A stretch of DNA of 64,000 nucleotides from Desulfosporosinus sp. FKB (lineage in GTDB: Bacteria > Bacillota > Desulfitobacteriia > Desulfitobacteriales > Desulfitobacteriaceae). The stretch lies in NCBI RefSeq assembly GCF_002196705.1, contig NZ_NADJ01000011.1, positions 57,600 to 121,599 of the forward strand, in the 5' to 3' direction. The stretch's first letter is position 1; every line of letters starts with the position of its first letter. The position numbers and the translations under genes were made by a program. Of the stretch, positions 51,382 to 63,655 are shown in pieces. Under the pieces are notes generated by a model. It searched no databases and was not told the DNA's origin. It saw only the letters and a list, made by a program, of their open reading frames with translations.

Positions 51382-52989
51382 TTAATTATAATTTAACATC
51401 TTCGAAAGAGTTGGGCGGCTAATTCCGAGTTTCAGTGCTAATTCACTATTGCTTAATTTTGCTGTAGCTCTCATTCTGCGAACAATTTCTGTATTCATTT
51501 CCGCTAAGGTACTAATACAAACACTTATTTTATCCTTATTTCCATCCTTCGAATCAGCGGAAAAATTATTTTCAATAAATTCTTCGTCAATAAGTTCAAG
51601 CATAATAGTTGATGCATCCTTTTCATTATTTGCTAATACCACACATCTTTCTACTAAATTTTGAAGCTGTCTGCTGTTCCCAGGCCAATCCAAATTGGAT
51701 AGTCTTTTGAGGACGTATGCTGGCAAAGAATAGACTGTTTTGGAGTACTTTTTAGAAAATTTCCTCACAAACAAAATTACTTGATCCGGAATATCCTCCC
51801 TTCTCTCACGCAGAGGCGGTAAAACAACTTTCAAGACACTTAAACGAAAATACAAATCTTCCCTAAATGTTCCTTTCCTGACTGATTCTGTTAAATCTTC
51901 ATTAGATGCTGCAATGATTCGAACATCCACTGAAACCACTCGGTCGCTGCCTATGCGCCGAACTTCTTTTTCCTGAAGTACTCTCAATAAGTTACCTTGC
52001 TGTTCAAATTTCATTTTCCCAATCTCATCGAGGAATAGAGTTCCGCCATTCGCCAGTTCAAACAAACCAGGTTTGCCCCCTTTTATTGCACCAGTAAAAG
52101 AACCTTCCGCATAACCAAAAAGTTCACTTTTAAATAAATTATCATCGAATGATGCGCAATTTACTGCAACAAATGGTTCTTTACGCCTCACATAATGTTC
52201 ATTATGAATACTCTGAGCCAACAATTCTTTACCAGTACCACTCTCTCCCCGGATTAGTATTGTGCAGTCTGTATTTGAATATTTCTTCGTTTTCTCAATA
52301 ATAGCAGCCATTTTACGGTTCACATAGATAATATCGTTGAACGTATATTTTGCTCTGAATCCTTTTGCCAATAACTCTCTTTTATGCTTAGGTTCCTGAA
52401 CTTTACTGTATAATCTAGCTTCCAGAAAATCTCTAGCTTGAGTTAAAGCGTTTTTAATGGTTTTTTTTCCGGCAGATACGGAGACGTAAATTAACCCAAA
52501 TCGTTTCACTAAGTTTTTGATTCTCTCTCCAACGCCCAATATTACTTGAATCCCATCTTTACGTGCTTCTGCCATTTGATTTTCTAGTTCCATCCAGCTT
52601 TTGTAGACGTAAATTTTAACGTTAAGGCCAAGAACATAACTAAGTTGTCTTACGACGGTGGGGTCCTCAGTTCCGGCAATAAATAAACCTATTTTCTCTC
52701 CCGTTGCTTTTGCCTTATCAAGAGCCAGAACTATCTCATACTCCGTGGGATGAATACTAATCATTTGCATGAAAGGTAATTCTTGTCGTAATAATTCCAA
52801 TGTCGCCCCTCCGCTTAATATTACTTTGATGCGATCAGGATCATTTGATATAATATCTTTGATTAAACTTACAGCAGATTCGAAAGAAGTCTCTATAATT
52901 GAAACAAACATATTCAGTTCACTTTGAACTTGTTCAATAATTTTCGTCGCTTCTTTATCCGGTGAAGTTACAACAATCTCTGTAAGCAT
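51382..52989 (-). CDS. PrpR-type sigma-54 activator
   Basis: A 535-residue enhancer-binding protein. The N-terminal part (1-190) is a PrpR_N sensor: VKVILSGGATLELLRQ-like sequence, GTEDPTVVRQLSYVLGLNV and SVSAGKKTIKNALTQARDFL. The AAA+ part has Walker A GESGTGKE (248-255), GSFTGA (296-301), Walker B TLFLDEIG and an Arg finger region. The HTH reads NSELALKLGISRPTLSKML. PrpR senses 2-methylcitrate; related proteins sense other organic or CoA metabolites, so a ligand from the adjacent pathway is likely. It is next to the CoA-transferase operon on the same strand. Start has GGGGGG. Confidence 0.92.
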   Translation of the reverse strand: MLTEIVVTSPDKEATKIIEQVQSELNMFVSIIETSFESAVSLIKDIISNDPDRIKVILSGGATLELLRQELPFMQMISIHPTEYEIVLALDKAKATGEKIGLFIAGTEDPTVVRQLSYVLGLNVKIYVYKSWMELENQMAEARKDGIQVILGVGERIKNLVKRFGLIYVSVSAGKKTIKNALTQARDFLEARLYSKVQEPKHKRELLAKGFRAKYTFNDIIYVNRKMAAIIEKTKKYSNTDCTILIRGESGTGKELLAQSIHNEHYVRRKEPFVAVNCASFDDNLFKSELFGYAEGSFTGAIKGGKPGLFELANGGTLFLDEIGKMKFEQQGNLLRVLQEKEVRRIGSDRVVSVDVRIIAASNEDLTESVRKGTFREDLYFRLSVLKVVLPPLRERREDIPDQVILFVRKFSKKYSKTVYSLPAYVLKRLSNLDWPGNSRQLQNLVERCVVLANNEKDASTIMLELIDEEFIENNFSADSKDGNKDKISVCISTLAEMNTEIVRRMRATAKLSNSELALKLGISRPTLSKMLNYN

Positions 52990-53556: not shown

Positions 53557-54177
53557 TTATTTTATCCAGATATCAAGATTATCCTTATATTCGATAATTT
53601 TCTCTGCTATTTTTACCCCAACATACTGAAAATAGCTCTCGCCGAAGTAATTTTGATTCTCAACAAACTTTACACCCGCATTGACTCTGTGGAGCAAAGG
53701 TATGCGGTTGGTTTTATTTATATCAAAATTCTTAATTCCTTTGCCAAATTCTTCGCCTAAAATAGCATTTCCCCAATAGACTGGTCCCTTCTCCGGCTTA
53801 ATTTTAAAGACCCGTCGCAGAAATTCATAGGGAAAGGCACCAAAGGTAATAATAATTTTCGGTTTATAGTCTAAGACGATTTCCCTGAACATCTCAATTT
53901 CTTCGCCGACTTCAACGCCCCACCAGTTTAAAGTATTGGGAACGATACCACTATCAGTTACTGCGTTCCTAATATATAGGTTTGTTGTATCAATTCTCGT
54001 TTGGATTTCCCGATAAACTTTATCTTGCATTTCGGCAAGAACCGGTGTCCATATTTGATGGCGAACTGCAGGATATTTGGGATTTACCAATAACCAAATT
54101 GGATAATTTTTATCTCCTGTATCTCTCTTAGCCTTTTCAGTTTGAGATATATAGTTATGGCGTATGAGATTTGACAT
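53557..54177 (-). CDS. Unannotated family, paralogue 1 (possible uracil-DNA-glycosylase-like fold)
   Basis: A 206-residue cytoplasmic protein, one of three close paralogues here (others at 60104 and 62267). Conserved blocks: GDKNYPIWLLVNPKYPAVRH (about 20-39), PVLAEMQDKVYREIQTRIDT, IVPNTLNWWGVEVGEEIEMF, KPKIIITFGAFPYEFLRRV (about 102-120), NKTNRIPLLHRV and the end KDNLDIWIK. The PKxIITFGAFxxxFL strand and the later PLLHR recall UDG-superfamily motifs; that is a weak analogy. It lies 67 bases after the SulP permease gene and shares its terminator, so they are probably one operon. ATG at 54177 is chosen for GAGGCGGGG. Confidence 0.7.
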   Translation of the reverse strand: MSNLIRHNYISQTEKAKRDTGDKNYPIWLLVNPKYPAVRHQIWTPVLAEMQDKVYREIQTRIDTTNLYIRNAVTDSGIVPNTLNWWGVEVGEEIEMFREIVLDYKPKIIITFGAFPYEFLRRVFKIKPEKGPVYWGNAILGEEFGKGIKNFDINKTNRIPLLHRVNAGVKFVENQNYFGESYFQYVGVKIAEKIIEYKDNLDIWIK

Positions 54178-54244
54178 TTTGACCCCGCCTCTCAATCAAT
54201 TTACCGATCGTCGATCACTCATCGTTTTGGGTTTACAATCATCT

Positions 54245-56074
54245 TTAATTAGTGCTGGTATTTTCAAAATAAGCTGGCTTTTTATTGGAGCTGTTCCCTC
54301 CATTAAAATTCGAAACAGATTGTAAGAGATGATAGGCAAAATTATCAGTTTCCGTGTTAGTATTTTCACAAGAAAATGCAACCCTTGTCTTCTCAATATC
54401 AAGAGCAATCGATTTTAACAGATCGTCTTCAGACAAGGTAAACTCGTAATCCACTCCTAATTCAGTATCTAGATTCGCCTTTAAAAGTAGTAAATTAATC
54501 TCTGGCCTTACTCCGCAGATCATGGCTTTTCCACCAAACCTATTTACAGATTTAATAAAAACCTTCAGGGCATTTAGTGCTGTTACGTCAAGGGAAATAA
54601 CATTTTTCATTTCCAAAACATAAAGATTAGCTTTATCAACCAAACTATCAAGTTTTTGTTCTAAATCGTAGGCAGAGCCAAAGTACAAATGACCTTCTAT
54701 TTGGATGATAAGCAAATCGGTTTTCTCATCTACGACCATTAATTCCTGCCGGTTAATTTTCAAATCCCTTCCCTGTGAAGGAATGAACAATTTGATTGGT
54801 GATTTATTTGTGTCCTTGAGATAGAGTATTATGGATAACACTATCCCCGTATAAATCGCATAATCTAAATCTGGCAGCAAGATTGTTGCCAAACAAGTTA
54901 CCGCCATAGCTAAAGAATCTGAATTAAATTTCCCTAATTTGATAATACTTTTAATTTCTTCTTGATCAATTAAACTATATGCCGTTACCAGGATAACTCC
55001 TGCCAGGCAAGGATTCGGAATATAACGGGCATAGGGTGCAAAGAACAAGAGGACAAGGCCTATCACCACACCTGACAGAATTCCTGACAATCTGCTAACT
55101 GCTCCATTATGGTAGTTGATAGCGGAACGGGTGAAGGAACCAGAGGCTGGGAAACACTGAAAGAATGAGGATATTATATTCGCAAGCCCCTGTCCAATGA
55201 ATTCTTGATTGGCGTCAATTTTTTGTCTAGAGGTACTTGAAATAGATTTAGAAATTGAAATCGCTTCAACCAAGCCGATCACAGAAATTGCAACTGCCCC
55301 ACTAAAAACTTTACTTGCTGAATCAAAGTTGAATTGAACCATTTTGAAAGGAGGCAATGACGAAGGAATGAATCCTGTAAGTTTAACACCCTTTTGATCC
55401 AATCCAAACATGATAATGATTAAGATCGGGATAACAATCCCTATAAGTGCACCAGGCAAGTTTTTATTGATTCTTTTACATGTCAAAATAATTACGATTG
55501 TCAATAATCCCAGTCCTAATGCATAGAGATTGGTTTGATTAATGTGAGTTAATACATAGTAAAGTTTCTCCATAGTTGGTAATTGAGCTGAATTTTTAAT
55601 TGAGATGCTCAGTATCGTATTCAATTGTCCAAGGGCAATTAAAACACCTGCACCCGCGGTAAAACCCACAATAACGCTATGTGATACAAAATTAATGACT
55701 TTTCCTAGTTTAATTATTCCATACAACATTTGTAAAGTCCCTACTAGGAAGGTCATAAGAAAGAGCATTTGATAAGCATTATCAAGTCCCATATAGTTTC
55801 GCATACTTCCTGCAACGAGCAGGCAAATGGCATTTGTAGGACCAGTAACCAAATGTTTTGAACTTCCAAAAGCTGAACCGAAAATAGAAGACACGATAGC
55901 CGTGTATAGACCGTATACTGGATTCACTCCTGCGATCAGAGCATACGCCATCGACTGAGGAATCGCTACTACAGCAACAGTCAAAGCAGCAATTAAGTCT
56001 CTGGTGAAATATTCCTTTTTGTAGTTTTTTATTGTAGACATCACAGGAATATATCGAAATCCTGTTAGGTTCAA
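54245..56074 (-). CDS. SulP-family anion permease with STAS domain
   Basis: A 609-residue transporter. The membrane core (about 20-420, 12-14 helices) has YFTRDLIAALTVAVVAIPQS, AYALIAGVNPVYGLYT, GSSKHLVTGPTNA and QEFIGQGLANIISSFFQCFP, all diagnostic of SulP. The STAS domain (about 440-560) reads LLIIQIEGHLYFGSAYDLEQ and VISLDVTALNALKVF. It probably imports sulfate, though bicarbonate or other oxyanions are known in the family. The TTG start at 56074 is 9 bases after AGGTGG. A perfect 12-base inverted repeat lies just upstream. In a sulfate reducer this could be a respiratory substrate transporter. Confidence 0.92.
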   Translation of the reverse strand: MNLTGFRYIPVMSTIKNYKKEYFTRDLIAALTVAVVAIPQSMAYALIAGVNPVYGLYTAIVSSIFGSAFGSSKHLVTGPTNAICLLVAGSMRNYMGLDNAYQMLFLMTFLVGTLQMLYGIIKLGKVINFVSHSVIVGFTAGAGVLIALGQLNTILSISIKNSAQLPTMEKLYYVLTHINQTNLYALGLGLLTIVIILTCKRINKNLPGALIGIVIPILIIIMFGLDQKGVKLTGFIPSSLPPFKMVQFNFDSASKVFSGAVAISVIGLVEAISISKSISSTSRQKIDANQEFIGQGLANIISSFFQCFPASGSFTRSAINYHNGAVSRLSGILSGVVIGLVLLFFAPYARYIPNPCLAGVILVTAYSLIDQEEIKSIIKLGKFNSDSLAMAVTCLATILLPDLDYAIYTGIVLSIILYLKDTNKSPIKLFIPSQGRDLKINRQELMVVDEKTDLLIIQIEGHLYFGSAYDLEQKLDSLVDKANLYVLEMKNVISLDVTALNALKVFIKSVNRFGGKAMICGVRPEINLLLLKANLDTELGVDYEFTLSEDDLLKSIALDIEKTRVAFSCENTNTETDNFAYHLLQSVSNFNGGNSSNKKPAYFENTSTN

Positions 56075-56095
56075 ATTAATTCCACCTTTCCTCTG

Positions 56096-56149
56096 AATAA
56101 CAACCCTCTAAGTTATCTGTGTTGTTAATAATACATTAGGGTTGTTATT
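56096..56149 (-). promoter_or_regulatory. Perfect 12-base inverted repeat in front of the SulP gene
   Basis: AATAACAACCCT (56096-56107) and AGGGTTGTTATT (56138-56149) are exact reverse complements with a 30-base spacer. It starts 22 bases before the TTG start and encloses the likely leader. It could be an operator pair, or a hairpin that controls translation. Confidence 0.55.
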
Positions 56150-56292
56150 CCGAACGTTTAAGGCATAAATCCTGTCTCAAAATTTAGCAATAAAAAGCCA
56201 AGCCTATTGGTGTCAACATATACCTATAGACGTTCAAATCGCCCTAAAAACGGCGGCCTAGAATTCCTCTTAACACAGATGGCTTTGATTGA

Positions 56293-56343
56293 GACTTAGC
56301 TGCAGCCTCATCTTAGGCTGCAACTAAGTCTTCTTTTCTTTTA
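56293..56343 (+). terminator. Strong hairpin with T tract on the plus strand
   Basis: GACTTAG and TGCAGCCT pair with AGGCTGCA and CTAAGTC; TTCTTTTCTTTT follows. It is oriented for a plus-strand transcript, yet no plus-strand gene is present nearby. An unannotated small RNA may end here. Confidence 0.65.
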
Positions 56344-56401
56344 AGCATGAGATTTTGCAGCAGCTATCTTGGTCAGGGTAGATAACCATAAGGAATTCTG
56401 G

Positions 56402-56451
56402 TATAATTTAATTAGTCACATTTTTTAGCGGCCTTCGAGGCTGCTTTTTTT
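56402..56451 (+). ncRNA. Minimal promoter-terminator cassette, copy 1
   Basis: TATAAT at 56402-56407 is followed 20 bases later by the hairpin AGCGGCCTTCGAGGCTGCT and seven T. A transcript starting here would be only about 40 bases long. The same layout and similar bases recur at 63784-63834. The hairpin overlaps the stop region of the 22-codon ORF on the other strand. No good -35 box is visible, so activity is uncertain. Confidence 0.35.
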
Positions 56452-56518
56452 ATTTTCTTAACTCTAACCCAATCGTCGGAATTTTTGTTCCTGTTTCTAA
56501 AACTGTCCATTTACGCAT
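56450..56518 (-). CDS. 22-residue micro-ORF overlapping the 33-residue one
   Basis: A 22-codon frame reading MRKWTVLETGTKIPTIGLEL and two more residues. GGAGGAAG lies 7 bases before its ATG, inside the end of the preceding ORF, and the two overlap by 8 bases, as in translationally coupled genes. Basic and amphipathic. No family is known. Low complexity of evidence at this size, but the ribosome site and coupling support it. Confidence 0.4.
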   Translation of the reverse strand: MRKWTVLETGTKIPTIGLELRK

Positions 56519-56612
56519 GCTCTCTTCCTCCGCTTCTTTGTTCCAATTGATCTGCTAAGATAACCCCGAAGGATGCTACCATAACCATAATCGCTAATAT
56601 ACCTGTTAACAT
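56511..56612 (-). CDS. 33-residue single-pass membrane micro-protein
   Basis: A 33-codon frame, ATG preceded by GGAGGTGAG at ideal distance. The sequence MLTGILAIMVMVASFGVILA is a perfect membrane helix, followed by the charged tail DQLEQRSGGREHA. It resembles in form the small accessory subunits of transporters such as KdpF, although sequence identity is not evident. It is upstream of the SulP gene on the same strand and downstream of the UspA gene, so it may accompany one of them. Confidence 0.6.
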   Translation of the reverse strand: MLTGILAIMVMVASFGVILADQLEQRSGGREHA

Positions 56613-57155
56613 TGCTCTCACCTCCAAATTAAATATTTCACTAATTTAATAAAAGGTTAACATTATGTTTTTATTCTGTCTATGGGAAATCAATATGCTC
56701 ACCATCAATTAACGTAATGGCAAAAATGAAAAATAATGTAATTGCCGGTTTAGTTCCACAATACTTCAGTTATCCTTATGATTACTTTGTGGATTTTTTT
56801 CCTTACTCAGATTCATTACTTGCAATATAATCTGCAAAATACCGCCAAATATATCTTATATTACCTACAATTTGACATTCTCATTCTCTAAAACGCTCAT
56901 CAATGGTTTAGGTATCCAGTTGAAAGCAGTAACTAACCAATAATTATTACCGATGCTGAAGGAATGACCCTAAAAAAAAAATTCCCAAAAACAAATAGAA
57001 GCCTCTTTTCAGAACAAAATTTCATCCACATCCTTATAACGCTGGTGCTTGTGCCCCACATCCGAATCGTATTTCAAGTCTTGACCACCTGTTGAGCGTA
57101 TAAAGCAAAAGCTTAGCGGCATGAATGCCGTATAGTACCGTTTAATTAACGCAGC
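56613..57155. other. Gene-free stretch upstream of the micro-ORFs
   Basis: About 540 bases of AT-rich sequence with no frame I can support. The leader and promoter of the micro-ORFs should lie in its left part. Confidence 0.6.
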
Positions 57156-57188
57156 AAAAAAAGAGGTAACCGCTTATTCAGTCACCTC
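57156..57188 (-). terminator. Terminator of the first UspA gene
   Basis: On the minus strand GAGGTGAC, a 10-base loop and GTTACCTC are followed by seven T. Element R7 lies between this terminator and the UspA stop codon. Confidence 0.85.
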
Positions 57189-57228
57189 AACAAAATCAAA
57201 ACCTATTTTTGTCTAACTTTTTCATCAG

Positions 57229-57313
57229 GGCTTCGGGGGAACTTTACCCCCACCGAAGCAAGATATGGGAACCACTCCCACTTGTTTAAGTGGGAGTCTT
57301 ACAATTGGATAAA
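57229..57313 (-). repeat. IS605-type palindromic element, copy R7
   Basis: On the minus strand TTATCCAATTGTAAGA, hairpin CTCCCACTT/AAGTGGGAG, TGGTTCCCATATCTTGCTTC, GGTGGGGGTAAAGTTCCCCC and GAAGCCCTGATG. The right-end palindrome is missing. It was inserted just after the UspA stop codon, before that gene's terminator. Confidence 0.7.
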
Positions 57314-57332
57314 TGTTTAATAATAATTCCTA

Positions 57333-57890
57333 TCAATTTCCCAAATAATTATCTATAAATTCTTGTGGAAGCTTTTTAATCAGCATAACTGGTATCGTTG
57401 ACTTATTAAGTAAATTATGAGCTAAACTGCCGAAGATTAACCCCTTAAAACTTGATAAACCACGCGTTCCAATAATAATTTGATCAAAAGAATTAGTATT
57501 TGCATAATCAAGGATTATATCTTCAATATGAGATGTATCATTAGGAGCATCGCTTGAGCCCTTAGTGTATATTTCTTTATGGGCAACATTGTATCCCTGG
57601 TTGAAGAAGATTTGATTTGTTTTACGAAGAATCTTATAATATTCCTTCTCAGTCTCATTATCCGACTCAGAAAGAACATGCTTCATCCATTCAGAAGTAG
57701 GAGTAGCCGGCCAAGTATCTCTCCAATCATACGCTTTAAATAAAGGAGATTCGTTTTCCTCAATAACTCTTAATACCGTTAATTGCATATCTGGCATATT
57801 TTGTAGTAGTGTAGCTGTGTAAACCGCTGCAGAAAATGCCTGGTGCGAGCCATCAGAGTAAAGAAGTACTTTAAACTGAGAATCATTCAT
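57333..57890 (-). CDS. Universal stress protein (UspA family), copy 1
   Basis: A 185-residue UspA protein. LLYSDGSHQAFSAAVYTATL at the start and IIIGTRGLSSFKGLIFGSLA with HNLLNKSTIPVMLIK at the end give the ATP-binding G-2x-G-9x-G(S) pattern. The segment in the middle is longer than in minimal Usp proteins (about 140 residues) and acidic. The copy at 62987 has the same length excess and architecture, so the two are paralogues. Expression under growth arrest or redox stress is typical of the family. Start has GGAGAG. Confidence 0.9.
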   Translation of the reverse strand: MNDSQFKVLLYSDGSHQAFSAAVYTATLLQNMPDMQLTVLRVIEENESPLFKAYDWRDTWPATPTSEWMKHVLSESDNETEKEYYKILRKTNQIFFNQGYNVAHKEIYTKGSSDAPNDTSHIEDIILDYANTNSFDQIIIGTRGLSSFKGLIFGSLAHNLLNKSTIPVMLIKKLPQEFIDNYLGN

Positions 57891-58090
57891 AATTTCAATC
57901 TCTCCTAAAATAATATAGAACTATTCTATCACAATTACGAGTTCTCAGTCTCTAGTGTTTTAAAATTTTTTTCGGAGTATTTTGACTCCCCTTTTAAGCT
58001 CATCTATAGTTAAAGCCCAGATATGATCACAATCAATTATCATCTCTGAAATTGGTTTCGAGCTGGTTAAGCAGTTTATCATTAACTAAC

Positions 58091-58564
58091 TTATCCAGCC
58101 ACATGAAAAACGCCTGAAGCTGCCGAGAGTATAATAATAATTTCCAACCCCACCATAATTGCATAGGGGATATCTCTTTTTATAGAATAATTGACAAACA
58201 AGGTAATATAACCAATAACAGAAACTAGTCCTAAAAATGCTAATCCAACTAAATTCATATAATCAGCATGACTGACCATTGTTAACCAACTCCAACCCGA
58301 AGGAGCATTAGTAAGTTTTGCATATTCATGAACTGAAAGCCCCCAATACTGAGGCATTTGCGAAGGCGCAACCATTGGATTAAATAAACCCGCCATATAC
58401 AGGATAAACGTAACAGCCATAATGCCTATGCCGGCCCAGGAACATACTAATAAAATATTTGCATATCGATTCTGTTCAGGACTAACCATTGAACTTAGAG
58501 CAGCATCCGAAGGATTGACTACACTTTGAGCATGGCCATTGGAAATAGAAGCTTGACTATTCAT
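58091..58564 (-). CDS. Four-helix membrane protein paired with the TauE/SafE exporter
   Basis: A 157-residue protein with a hydrophilic N-terminus (about 35 residues) and helices at about 38-60, 100-125 and 133-155, with a loop containing PQYWGLSVHEYAKLTNAPSG and a WLTMVSHADYMNL segment. It resembles in layout the DUF1634-type partners of TauE/SafE exporters, but I cannot confirm the family. ATG at 58564 has GGGGGT upstream; an earlier ATG at 58579 overlaps the TauE gene end. It is only 5 bases after the exporter gene, so the two are one unit. Confidence 0.65.
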   Translation of the reverse strand: MNSQASISNGHAQSVVNPSDAALSSMVSPEQNRYANILLVCSWAGIGIMAVTFILYMAGLFNPMVAPSQMPQYWGLSVHEYAKLTNAPSGWSWLTMVSHADYMNLVGLAFLGLVSVIGYITLFVNYSIKRDIPYAIMVGLEIIIILSAASGVFHVAG

Positions 58565-58569
58565 AATTT

Positions 58570-59496
58570 TTACCCCCATCCTAATCCATCTAATAAAGAT
58601 TTTAACCCAGCAAATAATAACATAAGGATTACAATATAGCGGATTGATTTAGGTTTTGTAATATTGAGAAGCCGAACACCTACACGTGATCCAAGCATAA
58701 TGCCAAGAACTGACGGAATAGTAATTATTGCAAGTACTGCACCTTGATTTAAATAAATCCAGGCTGCTGAGGTATCAGTGATTGCCAGTAGTGACATACT
58801 CGTACCAACTGCTATTTTGAGAGGAGCACCTAGCAGGAGATTCAATACAGGAACGTTAGCCCAACCTGCGCCAATTCCAAACATTCCAGCGATAACCCCA
58901 ATAAGGCAGAAGAGCAACAAACCTTGAGGCAGTCTCCAAACCGTCCAGCTTATATCTTGGCCGCTGGAAGACTCATAATATGCGCCCCCGATATTCAGAT
59001 AGCGAGCTAAGGAATCCGGACGGCCAATCTTGGGGATTTCACTATTTTTCGAAAACACAAATACTAAGGCTATACCTGTAATTAAAACGCCTAATAATAT
59101 TTTCAATATATTCTGTGGAAGAGCAAGTCCTAAATAAGCTCCAGCGATACTTGAAGAGGAAGCAAGCAATGCCAGGGGAATCACTAATCGCAAACTGGCC
59201 ATATTTGCTTTGAGGAGCTTTGGCCCGGCAGACAATGAACATGCAAGTGCAACAAATAAACCCGTGCCGCGAATGAAATCAAAGTTAAAAGGAAAAAAGC
59301 TGCTAATGATTGGTACAAATAGTGTGCTTCCCCCAATCCCTGCTAAGGCCGAAACAATACCTATAAAGAAGGTTGTTACCATCAAGGCAAGCGGCCACAC
59401 CCACCAGGGCACACCTGGTGTACTAGCTGCATTCGCCACAGCAAGACTAGTTGATGCAAATATTGAACTGGTGTGGGCGAAAAATTGTCCGATCAT
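58570..59496 (-). CDS. TauE/SafE family sulfite/organosulfonate exporter
   Basis: A 308-residue membrane protein with eight helices. ALAGIGGSTLFVPIISSFFP (about 49-68) and GIGAGWANVPVLNLLLGAPL with KIAVGTSMSLL in the second half are the duplicated DUF81 motifs. Substrates of the family include sulfite, sulfoacetate, thiosulfate and taurine. Two helices at the N-terminus are followed by PGVPWWVWPLALMVTTFFIG. A CRP/Rex-like palindrome lies about 100 bases upstream. With the SulP gene nearby it points to sulfur-oxyanion traffic. Start has GGAGGC. Confidence 0.9.
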   Translation of the reverse strand: MIGQFFAHTSSIFASTSLAVANAASTPGVPWWVWPLALMVTTFFIGIVSALAGIGGSTLFVPIISSFFPFNFDFIRGTGLFVALACSLSAGPKLLKANMASLRLVIPLALLASSSSIAGAYLGLALPQNILKILLGVLITGIALVFVFSKNSEIPKIGRPDSLARYLNIGGAYYESSSGQDISWTVWRLPQGLLLFCLIGVIAGMFGIGAGWANVPVLNLLLGAPLKIAVGTSMSLLAITDTSAAWIYLNQGAVLAIITIPSVLGIMLGSRVGVRLLNITKPKSIRYIVILMLLFAGLKSLLDGLGWG

Positions 59497-59594
59497 ATTC
59501 TGGGCCTCCTATATACGTTAAATTTTCTAGGCATTAAGGCATTAAGTCTTTAACTTATATATTTTTGTAAATCTCACACCCCCTACTCTTAATA

Positions 59595-59610
59595 TGTGAG
59601 TCTTCTCACA
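59595..59610 (-). promoter_or_regulatory. CRP/FNR- or Rex-like operator before the TauE gene
   Basis: TGTGAGTCTTCTCACA is a perfect 6-4-6 palindrome. It equals the CRP half-sites TGTGA-N6-TCACA and is one base off the Rex site TTGTGA-N6-TCACAA on the minus strand. A further pair TACTC...GAGTA flanks it. The window's Crp/Fnr regulator at 5058 is a candidate, but Rex cannot be excluded. Confidence 0.6.
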
Positions 59611-59879
59611 AATAGAGTAACATTTGTCTTTGCCTCGTGTCTATAGGATAACAATATGTTCATAATCGATTTTATCTATGGTTCGAGCCCTATAAAGTGT
59701 CCCTAAAAAAAACAAAGGCCCGTAGGAACATACTCACTACAGACCTCTATCAATTTCGCCTAAAACTTTTGTCAATTCCAACTCATTTTCACAAGAGAAT
59801 AATTTTATTGAAAGAAACTTTACTCAATTCAGTAAAGCGAACATGTTTAAAATTGTTCCTTTAACTTTGCCTCGTAATA

Positions 59880-59996
59880 GTGAACTCGTTCAGCTAAAGC
59901 TGAACATCGGGGTTTCGGTGGGTGACTCTACCTCCACCGAAGCAGGGTATGGGAACGACTCCCACCTTTGAAGCGGGAGTCGATTAGATAAATAGA
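59880..59996 (-). repeat. IS605-type palindromic element, copy R8 (clean short form)
   Basis: On the minus strand TTTATCTAATCGACTCCCGC, a hairpin with GGTGGGAGTC, TTCCCATACCCTGCTTCGGT, GGAGGTAGAGTCACCCACC, GAAACCCCGATG, then GTTCAGCTTTAGCTGAAC and GAGTTCAC. Left and right ends are both present, with a CGGTGGAGG/CCCACCG stem between. It is between the TauE operon promoter and the second paralogue. Confidence 0.75.
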
Positions 59997-60103
59997 TTTA
60001 CTAGTTCAAAATTGCACTAATGATTTGACTAAGTCCATAATGCTAGATTAAAATCAGCCAAATGAATATATTGGGGTTCAATCATTCTATGATTGTAAAA
60101 ATG

Positions 60104-60733
60104 CTAGATCCAAATATCGAGGTTATCCTTATTCTCAATAATTTTATCCGCTATTTTTGTCCCGACATAATGAAAGTATGTCTCGCCGTCATGAGGGCCC
60201 GAATAATTTGGATCTACTGTGAATTTCGCGGTTTCAATCACTCGCCGAAGCAATGGAATTCTATTGGTCTTCATAATATCAAAATTATTAATTGCTTTAC
60301 CAAATTCATGACCAAGATTAGCTGTGCTCCAAAACTTTGGCCCTTTTTCAGGTTTAATCTGATAAACTCTTCTCAAGAATTCAAAAGGGAATGCACCAAA
60401 GGAAATAATAATTTTAGGCTTAGATTCAACAGCAATTTCCTTAAAGATCTCAATTTCTTCAGCTACTTCAACGCCCCACCAGTTTAGAGTATTTGGTACC
60501 AGTTCGCTTACTCTAACCGCGTTTCGAATATAAATATTTGAAGTATCTATCCTTGAATGCAAAACTCGGAACACCTTATCCTGTACTTCAGCAAGAACGG
60601 GAGTCCATATATTGTGTCGAACAGCAGGATGTTTGGGATTGACAAGCAACCATATAGGGTACCCTCTATCCCCTGTCTCCTGTTTTATTTTTTCTATCGC
60701 AGGAATGTATCTGTTAAGCGTTAAGTTAGACAT
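60104..60733 (-). CDS. Unannotated family, paralogue 2
   Basis: A 209-residue protein very close to paralogue 1 and 3: YPIWLLVNPKHPAVRHNIWT, PNTLNWWGVEVAEEIEIFKE, KPKIIISFGAFPFEFLRRVY, MKTNRIPLLRRVIETAKF and an end KDNLDIWI. It carries a three-residue insertion (PHDG region) before ETYFHYVG. The conserved Trp pair NWW and the FGAFP strand are kept in all copies. It is upstream of the TauE/SafE unit on the same strand. ATG at 60733 has GAGGAGGG; a start at 60751 lies before that site. Function unknown. Confidence 0.7.
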   Translation of the reverse strand: MSNLTLNRYIPAIEKIKQETGDRGYPIWLLVNPKHPAVRHNIWTPVLAEVQDKVFRVLHSRIDTSNIYIRNAVRVSELVPNTLNWWGVEVAEEIEIFKEIAVESKPKIIISFGAFPFEFLRRVYQIKPEKGPKFWSTANLGHEFGKAINNFDIMKTNRIPLLRRVIETAKFTVDPNYSGPHDGETYFHYVGTKIADKIIENKDNLDIWI

Positions 60734-61414
60734 ATGAAAATCCCTCCTCACAAGATTTAAACATCTAAATATGATCAGTTCTTTAACTTGGGTTAGGAAT
60801 CTGCTTTTTAAGCAAATGTCTTTAATTTATAAATAATGCTTTATCAAATATTTAATCAAATTTCTTAGCAACCCTTAGGTATGCTTTCTTAACTGTATCG
60901 CTCCTCTATTTGAAAGATTATGGCAGTGTTGTCTCCCTCCTTGCCTTAAGTATGTACTTATCCTCACAATTAAAGATTATCATTGTGTTAAGGTATTGTC
61001 TATAACTAGGCAATATTATCGTAATTAGATTATCCTATGGATAGAGCGTATTTAAATGTCTATTTATTCCATTTTAGTTAATCTGACCATACCATTGCAT
61101 CAACTTCAGCTATATTCTTATGGTAATAAGGATAACAGCCTGTGACCTATCTTAGTTATAAAGAAGTAAAATCAAGAAAAAACGCTTGAAAATCAAAGGT
61201 GCTTAGAAATATTTAAACCTTGGAATTGTCTTAAAACTTCTGAGTTCGCTAAATTGTGTATTTCCGCCGAAATATTCTTAAAATCTTATTCAAAAATTAT
61301 TATAATATTTCTTAATTACCTAGGATATTTTTCTTTGAAATTAATCTTAATATGGGTTATTTCTATCGATTATGATTGTTTTACTTCCTGTCACTGTCAC
61401 TGATAACTTGTCTG
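60734..61414. other. Gene-free stretch with one inverted repeat
   Basis: About 680 AT-rich bases without a gene. CACAAT (60965-60970) and ATTGTG (60982-60987) form an inverted repeat with an 11-base spacer, about 230 bases before paralogue 2; TTGTGAGG on the minus strand resembles half of the palindrome at 59595. Confidence 0.5.
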
Positions 61415-62115
61415 GTGAACATGCTCCCACCACTTACGTTCTGCGAACGTTGAAGTGGGGGCTTCTTGGTCAATACTACTAACGTAGCAAGTTGTCCCAA
61501 GCTCAAAGGGTGTGACCCACCCCACAGAATACCCTATTTATAAGGCAAGGTTGAGAAGATTTTTACTGGCGTTGACATCCCTGTCGTGGTGATTGCCACA
61601 CGAGGGGCAATCCCACTCTCGAAGCTGGAGATTCTTTACATCAGCGTTTTTATAGCCACAAACTGAGCAGAGTTGACTACTGGCGTAGTTCGCGGGAGCG
61701 ATAATCACCTCGCGTCCGTACCAATGAGCTTTGTACTCTATCATGGTGCGAAATTCACTCCAGGACGCTACGGAGATAGCTTTGGCAAGCTTATGGTTCT
61801 TGACCATAGTTTTAACGCGAAGGTCTTCTCAAGATTAAGCTGAGCGTTGGCTAACGCCAAACTATCGACCTCTTTAAGCCAAGGAAACGTAGTTTTGTAT
61901 TGTGCAGGGGTATTTTTCAACATCGTTTGAGTGGTTTGGTAATGTTCTATTTTGTCATGAAGCATTGTATTATAGATAAATCGAACACAACCAAAGGTTT
62001 TTGCGAAGTAGATTTGTTGCTCTTGGTTCGGGTAGAGTCGATATTTATAGGCTTTAAGCAATGGCTTGTTCACCTCCCTTGCAATTTATTATACAGCAAT
62101 GAAGAGACAATAATT
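61415..62115 (-). mobile_element. IS200/IS605-type insertion element remnant
   Basis: A minus-strand element. Its right end has AAGCCCCCACTT, a CGTT-rich loop, AAGTGGTGGGAGC and GTTCAC, the hairpin-plus-TTCAC form usual for IS605 right ends. It encodes only tnpB fragments; no tnpA is present. The last part of tnpB and the sequence to 61415 is where an omega-RNA would be transcribed. Confidence 0.75.
61538..62073 (-). pseudogene. tnpB: TnpB (RNA-guided nuclease family), internally deleted
   Basis: The N-terminal 85 or so residues are intact ([50 protein letters not shown]). At about 61810 the frame jumps to the C-terminal part, which starts [20 protein letters not shown] and holds [20 protein letters not shown], the zinc finger CSVCGYKN...CPSCG and the RuvC-III motif [10 protein letters not shown]. 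The roughly 180-200 residues between, with the RuvC-I Asp and the RuvC-II Glu (in EDL), are missing and the frame is shifted. The nuclease cannot be active. The normal family length is about 370-400 residues. Confidence 0.9.
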
Positions 62116-62117
62116 TG

Positions 62118-62228
62118 TTGAGATAACGCAATTCATCCCCTCCCTAATCGTTGCGACGATTTGAGGGAGGGGACTTCTTGCTAACGTGGTTAAAAACAAA
62201 CCCTGAAGTTTGAAGTCTTCAGGGTAGT
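62118..62228 (-). repeat. Second pair of IS605-type ends upstream of tnpB
   Basis: ACCCTGAA (62200-62207) and TTCAGGGT (62218-62225) form one palindrome. Next to it CCCCTCCCT and AGGGAGGGG with TCGT/ACGA inside form a very strong hairpin (62135-62172). On the minus strand the order left-end hairpin, AAGAAGTCCCC, right-end hairpin suggests a roughly 110-base non-autonomous element, or the left end of the tnpB element joined to a foreign right end. Confidence 0.55.
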
Positions 62229-62266
62229 TGCTGTCACTTAACATTTTATTTAATTCTTATTAAACC

Positions 62267-62893
62267 CTATTTAATCCATATATCTAGGCTATCTTTATTC
62301 TCTATTATCTTTTCAGCTATTTTTTTCCCTACATATTGAAAATAGTTTTCTCCATAATAATTATGATCTTCGATAAATCTCCCACTTTTTACGACTCTGC
62401 GCAATAAAGGTATGCGATTAGTTTTCGTGATATCAAAGTTTTCCAGAGCTTTACCAAATTCATCACCTAAATTTGAGGTACCCCAAAACTTAGGCCCCTT
62501 TTCCGGATATATTTCATAGACTCTTCGTACAAATTCAAAAGGAAATGAGCCAAATGTTATTAAAATCTTAGGTTGATAATCCACAACCATTCCCCTGAAA
62601 AGCTCAATTTCTTTAGCTAATTCCATGCCCCACCAATTTAAAGTATTGGGAATTATTCGGCTGTCGCCAACAACTTTTCTCGTGTATAGTTTCGTTGTGT
62701 CAATTCTCGTACGCAGGTCCCTATAAACCTTATCTTGTATCTCTGCAAGAACTGGTGCCCAAATATTATGGCGTACAGCCGGATGTTTAGGATTTACTAA
62801 TAGCCAAATAGGATATGATTTATCTCCGGTCTCCCGTTCAACTAATTCAGCCGGACTTGAAGTTGTTGTATTAGTTTCATTTAACGATGACAA
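62267..62893 (-). CDS. Unannotated family, paralogue 3
   Basis: A 208-residue third paralogue: GDKSYPIWLLVNPKHPAVRH, APVLAEIQDKVYRDLRTRID, NTLNWWGMELAKEIELFRG, QPKILITFGSFPFEFVRRVY, TKTNRIPLLRRVVKSGRF and NYFQYVGKKIAEKIIENKD with DSLDIWIK. The start is TTG at 62893, preceded by AAGAAGGGG. It is the most diverged at the N-terminus, which is Thr/Ser-rich. It follows the second UspA gene by 93 bases with a terminator between, and precedes the IS605 remnant. Function unknown; see the finding on this family. Confidence 0.7.
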   Translation of the reverse strand: MSSLNETNTTTSSPAELVERETGDKSYPIWLLVNPKHPAVRHNIWAPVLAEIQDKVYRDLRTRIDTTKLYTRKVVGDSRIIPNTLNWWGMELAKEIELFRGMVVDYQPKILITFGSFPFEFVRRVYEIYPEKGPKFWGTSNLGDEFGKALENFDITKTNRIPLLRRVVKSGRFIEDHNYYGENYFQYVGKKIAEKIIENKDSLDIWIK

Positions 62894-62928
62894 ATTAACC
62901 CCTTCTTTCAGTATTCAGTCATGCATAT

Positions 62929-62960
62929 AAAAGCCCCAAAGAGAAATTCTCTTTTAGGGC
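62929..62960 (-). terminator. Terminator of the second UspA gene
   Basis: GCCCCAAAGAGAAA and TTCTCTTTTAGGGC pair nearly perfectly; on the minus strand CTTTTATATG follows. It lies 27 bases after the UspA stop. Confidence 0.8.
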
Positions 62961-62986
62961 AAGTTATCCTGTTCCTGCTTCATAAG

Positions 62987-63655
62987 TTAAAAAAATATAT
63001 TACCGGTACGGCCACTGATCATATGTGCAATTTGGGAGTTCTCTTCTCTTGTGTCCGATAAGAAATTACTAATAAATTCTTGAGGCAGCTTTTTAATTAA
63101 TAATACAGGGATTGATGACTTATTTTGTACTTTATGAGCTAAGCCCCCGAAAATTAACCCTTTAAACATTGAGAAACCATGTGTTCCCATAATAATCAGG
63201 TTAAATGAGTTTCTTTTAGAATAGTTTAAAATTAAATCTGCAGTATCAGAGGTATCTGATTTATCAATATTGGAAAATAATAGTTGATGGTTTATTTGGG
63301 ACGAATTTTCCACGAATATGCGATTTGTTTTCGATACTAAACGAGCATATTGATCTCTATGATCTTCTTCTGAATTAAGCATCTGTTTAAACCAATCATC
63401 TTCAGGAATTTTAAGATAAGTCTGTGACCAACTAAGCTCCGATTCAGACTCCCAGTAAATCCTCTTATACTTTCGTCTTAATTCACTCCAACTAAACTCA
63501 CTCCCCATAAAACGTTCATGACTTTCACGTATTTGAAGAATTGTCAATTTCATATTCGGAATATTATTTATGAGTGATGCGGCACACACAGCGGCAGAGA
63601 TTGATTGTGCCGACCCATCGGAATAGAGCAAGACATTAAAATATGAACTCTCCAT
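62987..63655 (-). CDS. Universal stress protein (UspA family), copy 2
   Basis: A 222-residue UspA-type protein with the start LLYSDGSAQSISAAVCAASL and the ATP motif IMGTHGFSMFKGLIFGGLAH with KVQNKSSIPVLLIKKLPQEF. A middle insertion of about 50 residues (HERFMGSEFSWSELRRKYKR and on) and a C-terminal extension of about 30 residues distinguish it from copy 1 and from minimal Usp proteins. A shared KKLPQEFI end shows common origin with copy 1. Start has AGGGAAGGGG. Confidence 0.88.
   Translation of the reverse strand: MESSYFNVLLYSDGSAQSISAAVCAASLINNIPNMKLTILQIRESHERFMGSEFSWSELRRKYKRIYWESESELSWSQTYLKIPEDDWFKQMLNSEEDHRDQYARLVSKTNRIFVENSSQINHQLLFSNIDKSDTSDTADLILNYSKRNSFNLIIMGTHGFSMFKGLIFGGLAHKVQNKSSIPVLLIKKLPQEFISNFLSDTREENSQIAHMISGRTGNIFF

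Follow-up and report, generated by a model that had tools for sequence, protein, structure and literature searches.

A predicted uracil-DNA glycosylase-fold family among the anion-transporter genes beside aprA of Desulfosporosinus

Introduction

What might several copies of one small protein, without a family name, be doing among the anion-transporter genes of a sulfate-reducing bacterium? The window considered here is a 64,000-nucleotide stretch of Desulfosporosinus sp. FKB (contig NZ_NADJ01000011.1, positions 57,600 to 121,599 of the forward strand), which ends 3.5 kb short of the contig end in a genome of 5.12 Mb. On its minus strand lie three paralogues of about 210 residues, copy 1 (53557..54195), copy 2 (60104..60751; it may start with the GTG at 60751 or with an ATG six codons later) and copy 3 (62267..62893), copies 2 and 3 being 69% and 66% identical to copy 1. 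A sequence-only reading of the window had described these genes as interleaved with those for a SulP permease, a TauE/SafE protein with its partner and universal stress proteins (Usp), an arrangement borne out by the coordinates, the Pfam assignments and the 66–69% identity, and had guessed at a fold resembling that of the uracil-DNA glycosylase (UDG) superfamily. A search of open-licence papers, by titles and abstract openings, returned no published description of such a family. Here we find that the family is, by its predicted fold, a branch of the UDG superfamily that is new and specific to one lineage, and that its copies are built into an anion-transport cluster next to aprA in Desulfosporosinus.

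Results

A predicted UDG fold and its putative pocket residues

None of the three copies matched a Pfam family at E up to 1 or an NCBIfam family near a cut-off, PHROGs and PADLOC profile searches gave only weak matches to no consistent family (best E about 0.005 and 0.01), and a profile search of PDB sequences with the family gave no match. A structure model of copy 3 built from 43 sequences, predicted and in this unlike a solved structure, reached a mean predicted local distance difference test score (pLDDT) of 80.5 and a predicted template-modelling score of 0.79, with residues 1–16 and 168–177 below 50 pLDDT; an earlier model from 3 sequences had a pLDDT of 35. In a Foldseek search all 11 matches with E up to 0.001, and ranks 1 to 40 as a whole, belonged to the UDG superfamily, at modest TM-scores of 0.38–0.50 (query-normalised). 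The best VIA-align match was the family-4 UDG 4zby (Z 10.8, 3.6 Å over 156 residues, 13% identity), and 49 of the 50 rows shown were named UDG or TDG, the remaining one being a phage polymerase chain. The guess made from the letters thus agrees with what the fold search returned.

Sequence comparison points the same way more faintly. When the Pfam UDG model was run over 21 genomes, 10 of the 11 sub-cut-off matches were family members, which scored at most 17.4 bits and did not reach the curated cut-off of 24.3. This model weakly matched 9/43 members (best E 0.0045) and NCBIfam UDG_fam4 2/43 (best E 0.002). Because unrelated NCBIfam families score alike (SterCoASynCasI, 9/43, E 0.0043), among the sequence matches we give weight only to a family-4 UDG profile run with controls, which exceeded 5 bits with 23/98 members (top 18.3) against 2/588 shuffled or reversed sequences (top 6.7), the match spanning strand 2 to strand 3. 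A second, narrower family-4-like profile fared no better with members than with its controls (over 5 bits, 1 member and 4 controls), and the probabilities from hhalign comparison with small UDG alignments were too low to be of use (best 4.6%, P 0.0087, family 4).

With family-4 UDG (UDGa; 4zby, 1ui1) and UdgX the model shares the fold over almost the whole chain (Z 10.8 to 4zby, about 9 to UdgX), and in family 4 the strand-2 to strand-3 stretch aligns as well, the Asn that follows strand 2 and the Pro-Lys strand-Gly pattern being common to both. The structural alignments are, however, only 10–14% identical, motif 1 is GEAPG there and (V/I/F)NPK here, and the motif-2 His there is Arg in 85/98 family members. 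Family-4 UDG needs four Cys for its iron-sulfur cluster, whereas the iron-sulfur cysteines are missing here (0–2 Cys in 96/98 members). The family appears to be like family 2 (MUG/TDG) in having an Asn at the motif-1 position, and there, too, the motif-2 His is reported not to be required (PMC5387724). Human TDG is among the structural matches, although no MUG or TDG family model appears among the weak profile matches. The motif 1 of MUG has Gly after Asn-Pro, where 91/97 family members have Lys.

The pocket equivalences were taken from the strand ends of the model, without superposed side chains. MAFFT joint alignments disagreed from run to run on where the two motifs fall, and the residue equivalences are therefore inferred ones. 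Among 98 distinct members (short fragments in genomes G012, G024 and G025 excluded), the end of strand 1, at the motif-1 position, holds Asn in 95/97 and Pro in 97/97, without keeping the flanking Gly residues. In strand 4, Asn, Pro and Leu are each present in 98/98, followed two residues on by Arg in 85 or His in 13 of the 98, so that the motif-2 position reads IPLL(R/H)R, in a register that differs between joint alignments. The position aligned with the family-4 motif-3 Asn89 (N89 of Tth UDGa) is Asn in 58, Ser in 31 and Lys in 5 of 98, and several invariant residues (Glu, Arg, Trp, Phe) map to the helices that follow strand 3 or close to them. Since UDG families are described without one motif or another, families 2 and 6 without the motif-2 His and families 4–6 without the motif-1 catalytic Asp/Asn (PMC5387724), the loss of a single motif would be no proof of lost activity. 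The proteins are weakly basic (median pI 8.5), with a median charge of +1.8, lower than that of family-4 domains (+5.9) and of a mixed UDG set (+3.9).

Of the motifs quoted in the sequence-only reading as common to all copies, NTLNWWG and TNRIPLLxR do stand in all three window copies, while KPKII(T/S)FG(A/S)FP varies slightly, reading QPKILITFGSFP in copy 3. Copy 1 has a 98% identical counterpart in Desulfosporosinus acididurans, and a fourth copy of the own genome lies on a separate contig (L066, G000:C27:12000-30000). The ratio of nonsynonymous to synonymous substitution rates (dN/dS) was 0.02–0.08 in the 6/9 orthologue pairs where dS was computable; dS was saturated in the other three, and high (1.8–3.3) in three of the six. 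On these ratios, the family genes are under purifying selection. Selenocysteine was considered, the listing of many relatives having shown one in-frame TGA, and was rejected, because in the 20 sequence stretches read the TGA codons lay outside the coding part, directly upstream of the ATG in the leader, or were the normal stop.

Distribution of the family and of AprA

A search of 73 genomes of the order found the family in 27/29 genomes of the genus Desulfosporosinus and in 2/2 of a sister genus, with 1–8 matches per genome; the fragments in G012, G024 and G025, which are pieces of split or truncated copies, are included in these matches and not among the 68 copies considered below. The other 42 genomes of the order held none, and in the 398 genomes of the phylum sample only three had the family, all of this genus. 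In both samples one match (G004, E 0.001) was dropped: it falls within an open reading frame of 381 residues beside a gene that by eye is corrinoid-protein-like, and looks due to chance. The sequence-only reading had suggested neighbourhood statistics across Firmicutes; in these samples the family is much narrower than that, with two genera having it.

Within the order, the family co-occurs with AprA, a subunit of adenosine-5'-phosphosulfate (APS) reductase. AprA scored over the cut-off in 20/29 family-bearing genomes and in 0/44 others of the order. Five further family genomes have a truncated aprA (G015, G017, G029, G000, G032), and in four, G012, G023, G024 and G033, whose assemblies run to about 130–970 contigs, no aprA was found. 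The two genus members without the family, G021 (98% complete) and G026 (79%), are also without AprA over the cut-off. The co-occurrence is partly phylogeny, being carried by two genera, and it does not extend to sulfate reducers at large.

Position beside aprA

In all 16 Desulfosporosinus genomes with both on one contig (G000, G008, G009, G011, G013–G020, G027, G028, G032, G035), the nearest copy lies 3.8–7.1 kb from aprA or its fragment. From genomes with the two on different contigs, six aprA contigs were inspected; in four of these (G022, G025, G030, G031) a SulP gene lies between aprA and the contig end, joined in three of the four by a Usp gene, in G010 nothing known was found in the remaining 3.4 kb beside aprA, and in G034 the contig stops at aprA. 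In the contig studied here, a third Usp gene, two chromate-transporter proteins (Pfam) and a piece of aprA lie upstream of the cluster beyond the window end; the piece, truncated where the contig stops and 3.4 kb away from the window (L065:19896-20000), matched AprA over 35 residues at 80% identity. The assembly also breaks inside aprA in G032 and G017. Because G008, G009 and G028 hold two aprA copies with starts about 4–10 kb apart, a repeat probably breaks assemblies at this gene.

Transporter genes near sulfate-reduction genes have been described for this genus: D. orientis has SulP, DASS and TSUP genes in the vicinity of sat and aprAB, and near such genes D. meridiei has one SulP and D. 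acidiphilus one TSUP (Marietou et al., 2018, PMC5840216). These clusters look like the family-bearing ones, although the main text of that paper, by word search, contains none of 'universal stress', 'UspA', 'uracil' or 'hypothetical protein'.

Linkage of the copies to anion transporters and Usp

For the linkage sample, genes were clustered from 30 stretches holding 68 family copies, made up of a first set of 20 and of 10 of the 24 loci in a second set; these stretches were picked for holding the family, their orthologues are not independent, and the identity of each gene cluster comes from Pfam on one member, or two for the activators. The stretches hold 51 Usp genes (at least 120 residues), 22 SulP (at least 200 residues; 4 shorter pieces excluded), 10 TauE, 9 longer TauE, 10 DASS (Na_sulph_symp) and 5 ArsB/NhaD-like genes, together with 17 sigma-54 activators and 12 histidine-kinase reading frames, some of them split. 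A SulP, TauE, DASS or ArsB-like gene stands within 4 kb of 58/68 copies (by type, SulP 30, longer TauE 17, DASS 14, TauE 12 and ArsB-like 6). Inclusion of the SulP-cluster pieces of 70–116 residues, one of which had no Pfam match, raises the SulP neighbours from 30 to 35 of 68 and leaves the total of 58 unaffected. A Usp gene lies within 4 kb of 46/68 copies, and a family copy within 4 kb of 49/51 Usp genes; for comparison, with 12 Usp matches in the 5.12 Mb of the own genome, a random point would be within 4 kb of a Usp gene in about 2% of cases.

A stronger point than these counts is the tree of 67 copies, in which well-supported paralogue clades mostly retain their own neighbour. The clades have, respectively, SulP upstream, TauE downstream, Usp upstream, a divergent histidine kinase, a 236-residue membrane protein upstream with Usp downstream, and DASS or ArsB-like genes upstream; as an exception, L020_10 groups with the SulP-linked copies and has no SulP adjoining. 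In the sister genus (L079, L080), Usp, TauE, the partner and a copy stand together away from aprA. The link with Usp and anion-transporter genes that had been suspected from one window therefore recurs across the genus and in its sister. By name it is broader than the sulfur oxyanion transport proposed in that reading, since DASS and ArsB/NhaD-like transporters are included, as are chromate-type transporters of the cluster.

At 9 loci (L068:5236-7516 and orthologues), a longer TauE/SafE gene of about 440 codons is followed by the gene for the 236-residue membrane protein, for which Pfam gave no significant match, and then by a family copy. At L020:1189-8633, two ATP-binding cassette (ABC) transporter gene sets are divergent from a family copy that stands beside kinase or sigma-54 genes and lacks a transporter or Usp neighbour of the types counted above; Pfam on three of the ABC genes gave SBP_bac_11, BPD_transp_1 and ABC_tran, and they look like genes for uptake of molybdate or a similar oxyanion.

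The locus in the window

In the order of transcription on the minus strand, from 63.7 to 51.4 kb, the window reads Usp, copy 3, copy 2, TauE/SafE, membrane partner, Usp, SulP-STAS, copy 1 and a PrpR-type sigma-54 activator. The first gene (62987..63655), 93 bp upstream of copy 3, encodes an atypical Usp protein of 222 residues (Pfam Usp, E 5.9e-11) whose ATP motif is partly kept (GxxGx9GG). Copy 3, the query of the structure model, falls in the Usp-linked clade (100/100), and copy 2, upstream of TauE, in the TauE-side clade (support 100/100). The TauE/SafE (TSUP) membrane protein (58570..59496) matches Pfam TauE at E 3.4e-39 and 135.3 bits (cut-off 32.6). Its gene overlaps by 10 bp that of its membrane partner (58091..58579), both lying downstream of copy 2; the partner has a weak, sub-threshold resemblance to DUF1634 (E 0.052), and its cluster has 9 members in 9 loci, with TauE adjoining in 9/9. 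The second atypical Usp protein (57333..57890), of 185 residues, has GxxGx9GS (E 1.3e-15), and the two score 58.6 (this one) and 43.5 bits against the Pfam Usp cut-off of 24. The SulP permease (54245..56074) has both a Sulfate_transp domain (E 1.8e-99) and a C-terminal STAS domain (E 5.6e-13), and its NCBIfam sulP score of 362.9 is slightly below the cut-off of 380.45. Copy 1 follows 49 bp downstream of SulP and falls within the SulP-linked clade. It is adjoined by the sigma-54 activator (51382..52989; Sigma54_activat E 6.2e-65, PrpR_N E 7.3e-31), which might be the associated regulator of the copy 1 locus. All of these genes are on the minus strand, as is a remnant of an IS605-type OrfB/TnpB gene (61538-62073) between copies 2 and 3, which consists of two overlapping pieces (HTH_OrfB_IS605 and a Cas12f1-like TNB domain) with the middle missing.

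Regulation

For some copies, expression is probably activated by a histidine kinase and a sigma-54 activator encoded alongside. A sigma-54 promoter match (at least 10 of 11 positions) lies upstream of 7/9 copies of the kinase-linked clade, compared with 1/59 other copies and 6/349 non-family genes; the clade was singled out after hits in a first scan, and Fisher tests, which treat relatives as independent, overstate the difference. Most kinase-linked copies have beside them genes for a kinase and for a sigma-54 activator of the response-regulator type (each identified by Pfam on a single member), and sigma-54 activators of the PrpR_N and response-regulator types together occur in 16/30 loci. 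The fourth copy of the own genome is transcribed divergently from genes for a histidine kinase and a sigma-54 activator, and a perfect match to the promoter stands 102 bp before its called start. For the three window copies no promoter match was found (at least 9 positions, 300 bp upstream).

Discussion

We propose, tentatively and as a possibility that falls somewhat short of an even chance, that the UDG-fold protein together with Usp is a nucleotide-binding accessory module of the adjacent transporters. The UDG-fold protein would be a cytosolic accessory of SulP, TauE/SafE, DASS and ArsB/NhaD-like transporters, partnering the neighbouring Usp. The ligand of Usp would be ATP or a related nucleotide, while the former glycosylase pocket of the UDG-fold protein, with its conserved Asn-Pro after strand 1 and Arg/His after strand 4, might take up a base, a nucleotide or an adenylyl compound. 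In this way the module might couple the cell's adenylate or APS state to sulfate import and to the export of sulfite or anions, the accessory protein adjusting or protecting the adjacent transporter. We lean toward such an accessory role because paralogues stand beside different transporters, pair with Usp and keep the pocket. Most transporters of the clusters have their own family paralogue nearby, and we propose that for this reason the copies multiply with the transporters.

Several observations weigh against this proposal. None of the 13 other genomes with AprA in the phylum sample has the family, and therefore it is not required for sulfate uptake in general; a profile search of the surroundings of aprA in 13 stretches, taken from other families within the phylum, found no family member, and some of these stretches hold ArsB/DASS-like transporters (L175, L176, L179), one of them also a Usp (L175). 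No SulP, TauE, DASS, ArsB-like or Usp gene lies within 4 kb of 10/68 copies; six of the ten are beside kinase or sigma-54 genes, and four (L025, L026, L028, L029) have neither a kinase nor a sigma-54 gene within that distance either, L025 beginning 365 bp before its copy so that its upstream side is unseen. The Usp ATP motif, GxxGx9G(S/T), is complete in only 19/51 Usp proteins. In the sister genus, the copy of G001 lies about 102 kb from aprA, still adjoining TauE, the partner and Usp, and the aprA stretches there (L186, L187) have two Usp matches each and no family member. Lastly, local tandem duplication could yield part of the linkage without a functional tie.

It is unlikely, though slightly less so than the explanations that follow, that the family is a glycosylase-dead member which binds nucleic acid or protein, for example as a regulator of the transporter operons. 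Such a role would be consistent with the replacement of most motif-2 His by Arg (85/98), with the linked sigma-54 activators and kinases, and with the invariant Glu, Arg, Trp and Phe near the helices after strand 3, which suggest a binding surface. Against it, the Pfam searches matched no known DNA-binding domain, the conserved pocket positions favour a small ligand, and the linked regulators alone could account for regulation.

We also consider it unlikely that the family acts in repair, as an active DNA glycosylase taking out pyrimidines damaged by sulfite. Sulfite is the product of AprAB, and bisulfite adds to cytosine and deaminates it via 5,6-dihydrouracil-6-sulfonate to uracil; the enzyme would cut out the sulfonated base, with the sulfonate gripped by the motif-2 Arg and the water positioned by the motif-1 Asn as in MUG/TDG, and TauE/SafE would export the sulfite. 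The UDG fold of the model, the Asn-Pro and Arg/His kept in nearly all members, the weakly basic proteins and the adjacency to aprA and TauE all speak for repair, as do families 2 and 6, described as likewise lacking the motif-2 His (PMC5387724). In yeast, Ung1 is reported hardly to affect bisulfite mutagenesis, the lesion deduced there being 5,6-dihydrouracil-6-sulfonate, which Ung1 is thought to be poor at removing (PMC3521656). Repair fits the bisulfite chemistry, but it fits the paralogue pattern less well, since paralogues at the side of transporters would be odd for an enzyme serving the whole genome. Many partner transporters, moreover, are by family what we take to be importers, the motif-1 Gly is missing, no more than 58/98 have Asn at the position of family-4 motif 3, the family is less basic than UDGs, and the 13 AprA-bearing genomes above do without it. 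The own genome also already has a UDG over the Pfam cut-off, Ung-like by eye.

A wider variant, which we regard as about equally unlikely, is that this UDG branch evolved to cope with sulfite made in respiration, recognising sulfite-modified pyrimidines and removing or signalling them within the Usp/transporter module; its targets would be dihydrouracil-6-sulfonate or the cytosine precursor of it, in DNA or in free nucleotides. That the family has no tie to transport, having been duplicated inside a transporter-holding cluster and carried along, is improbable: the duplication within the aprA cluster is obvious and the four copies without any tracked neighbour would fit, but the links are found again in the sister genus, at a distance from aprA, and involve four families of transporter, the paralogue clades mostly retain their neighbours, and the purifying selection is strong.

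The locus bears on which of the many candidate sulfate transporters of sulfate reducers truly carry sulfate, posed as an open question by Marietou et al. (2018, PMC5840216). A family adjoining most candidate transporters in the sampled clusters of one genus, near aprA, offers a handle on that question, and adds to the UDG superfamily a branch whose gene surroundings have to do with anion transport and not with DNA repair. High-flux makers of sulfite may also need to protect nucleic acid from bisulfite chemistry, for which the locus offers a specific gene. Altogether the locus hints at an unrecognised way of sensing or surviving sulfur oxyanions in sulfate-reducing Desulfosporosinus. The stress system also suggested from the sequence stays putative, Usp being a family name; raised transcription of a UspA gene has been reported in a peat Desulfosporosinus, at a locus not stated (PMC6372793).

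Further genes of the clusters

Two other genes accompany the clusters. A conserved 156-residue protein, without a Pfam match, is encoded within the cluster at 8 loci (L073:9027-9497 and orthologues). A TerD-TerB two-domain protein is encoded downstream of several clusters (L084:15243-16682 and orthologues; 9 loci), its gene often followed by an ArsC-like gene and one for a large unnamed protein, both named by eye.

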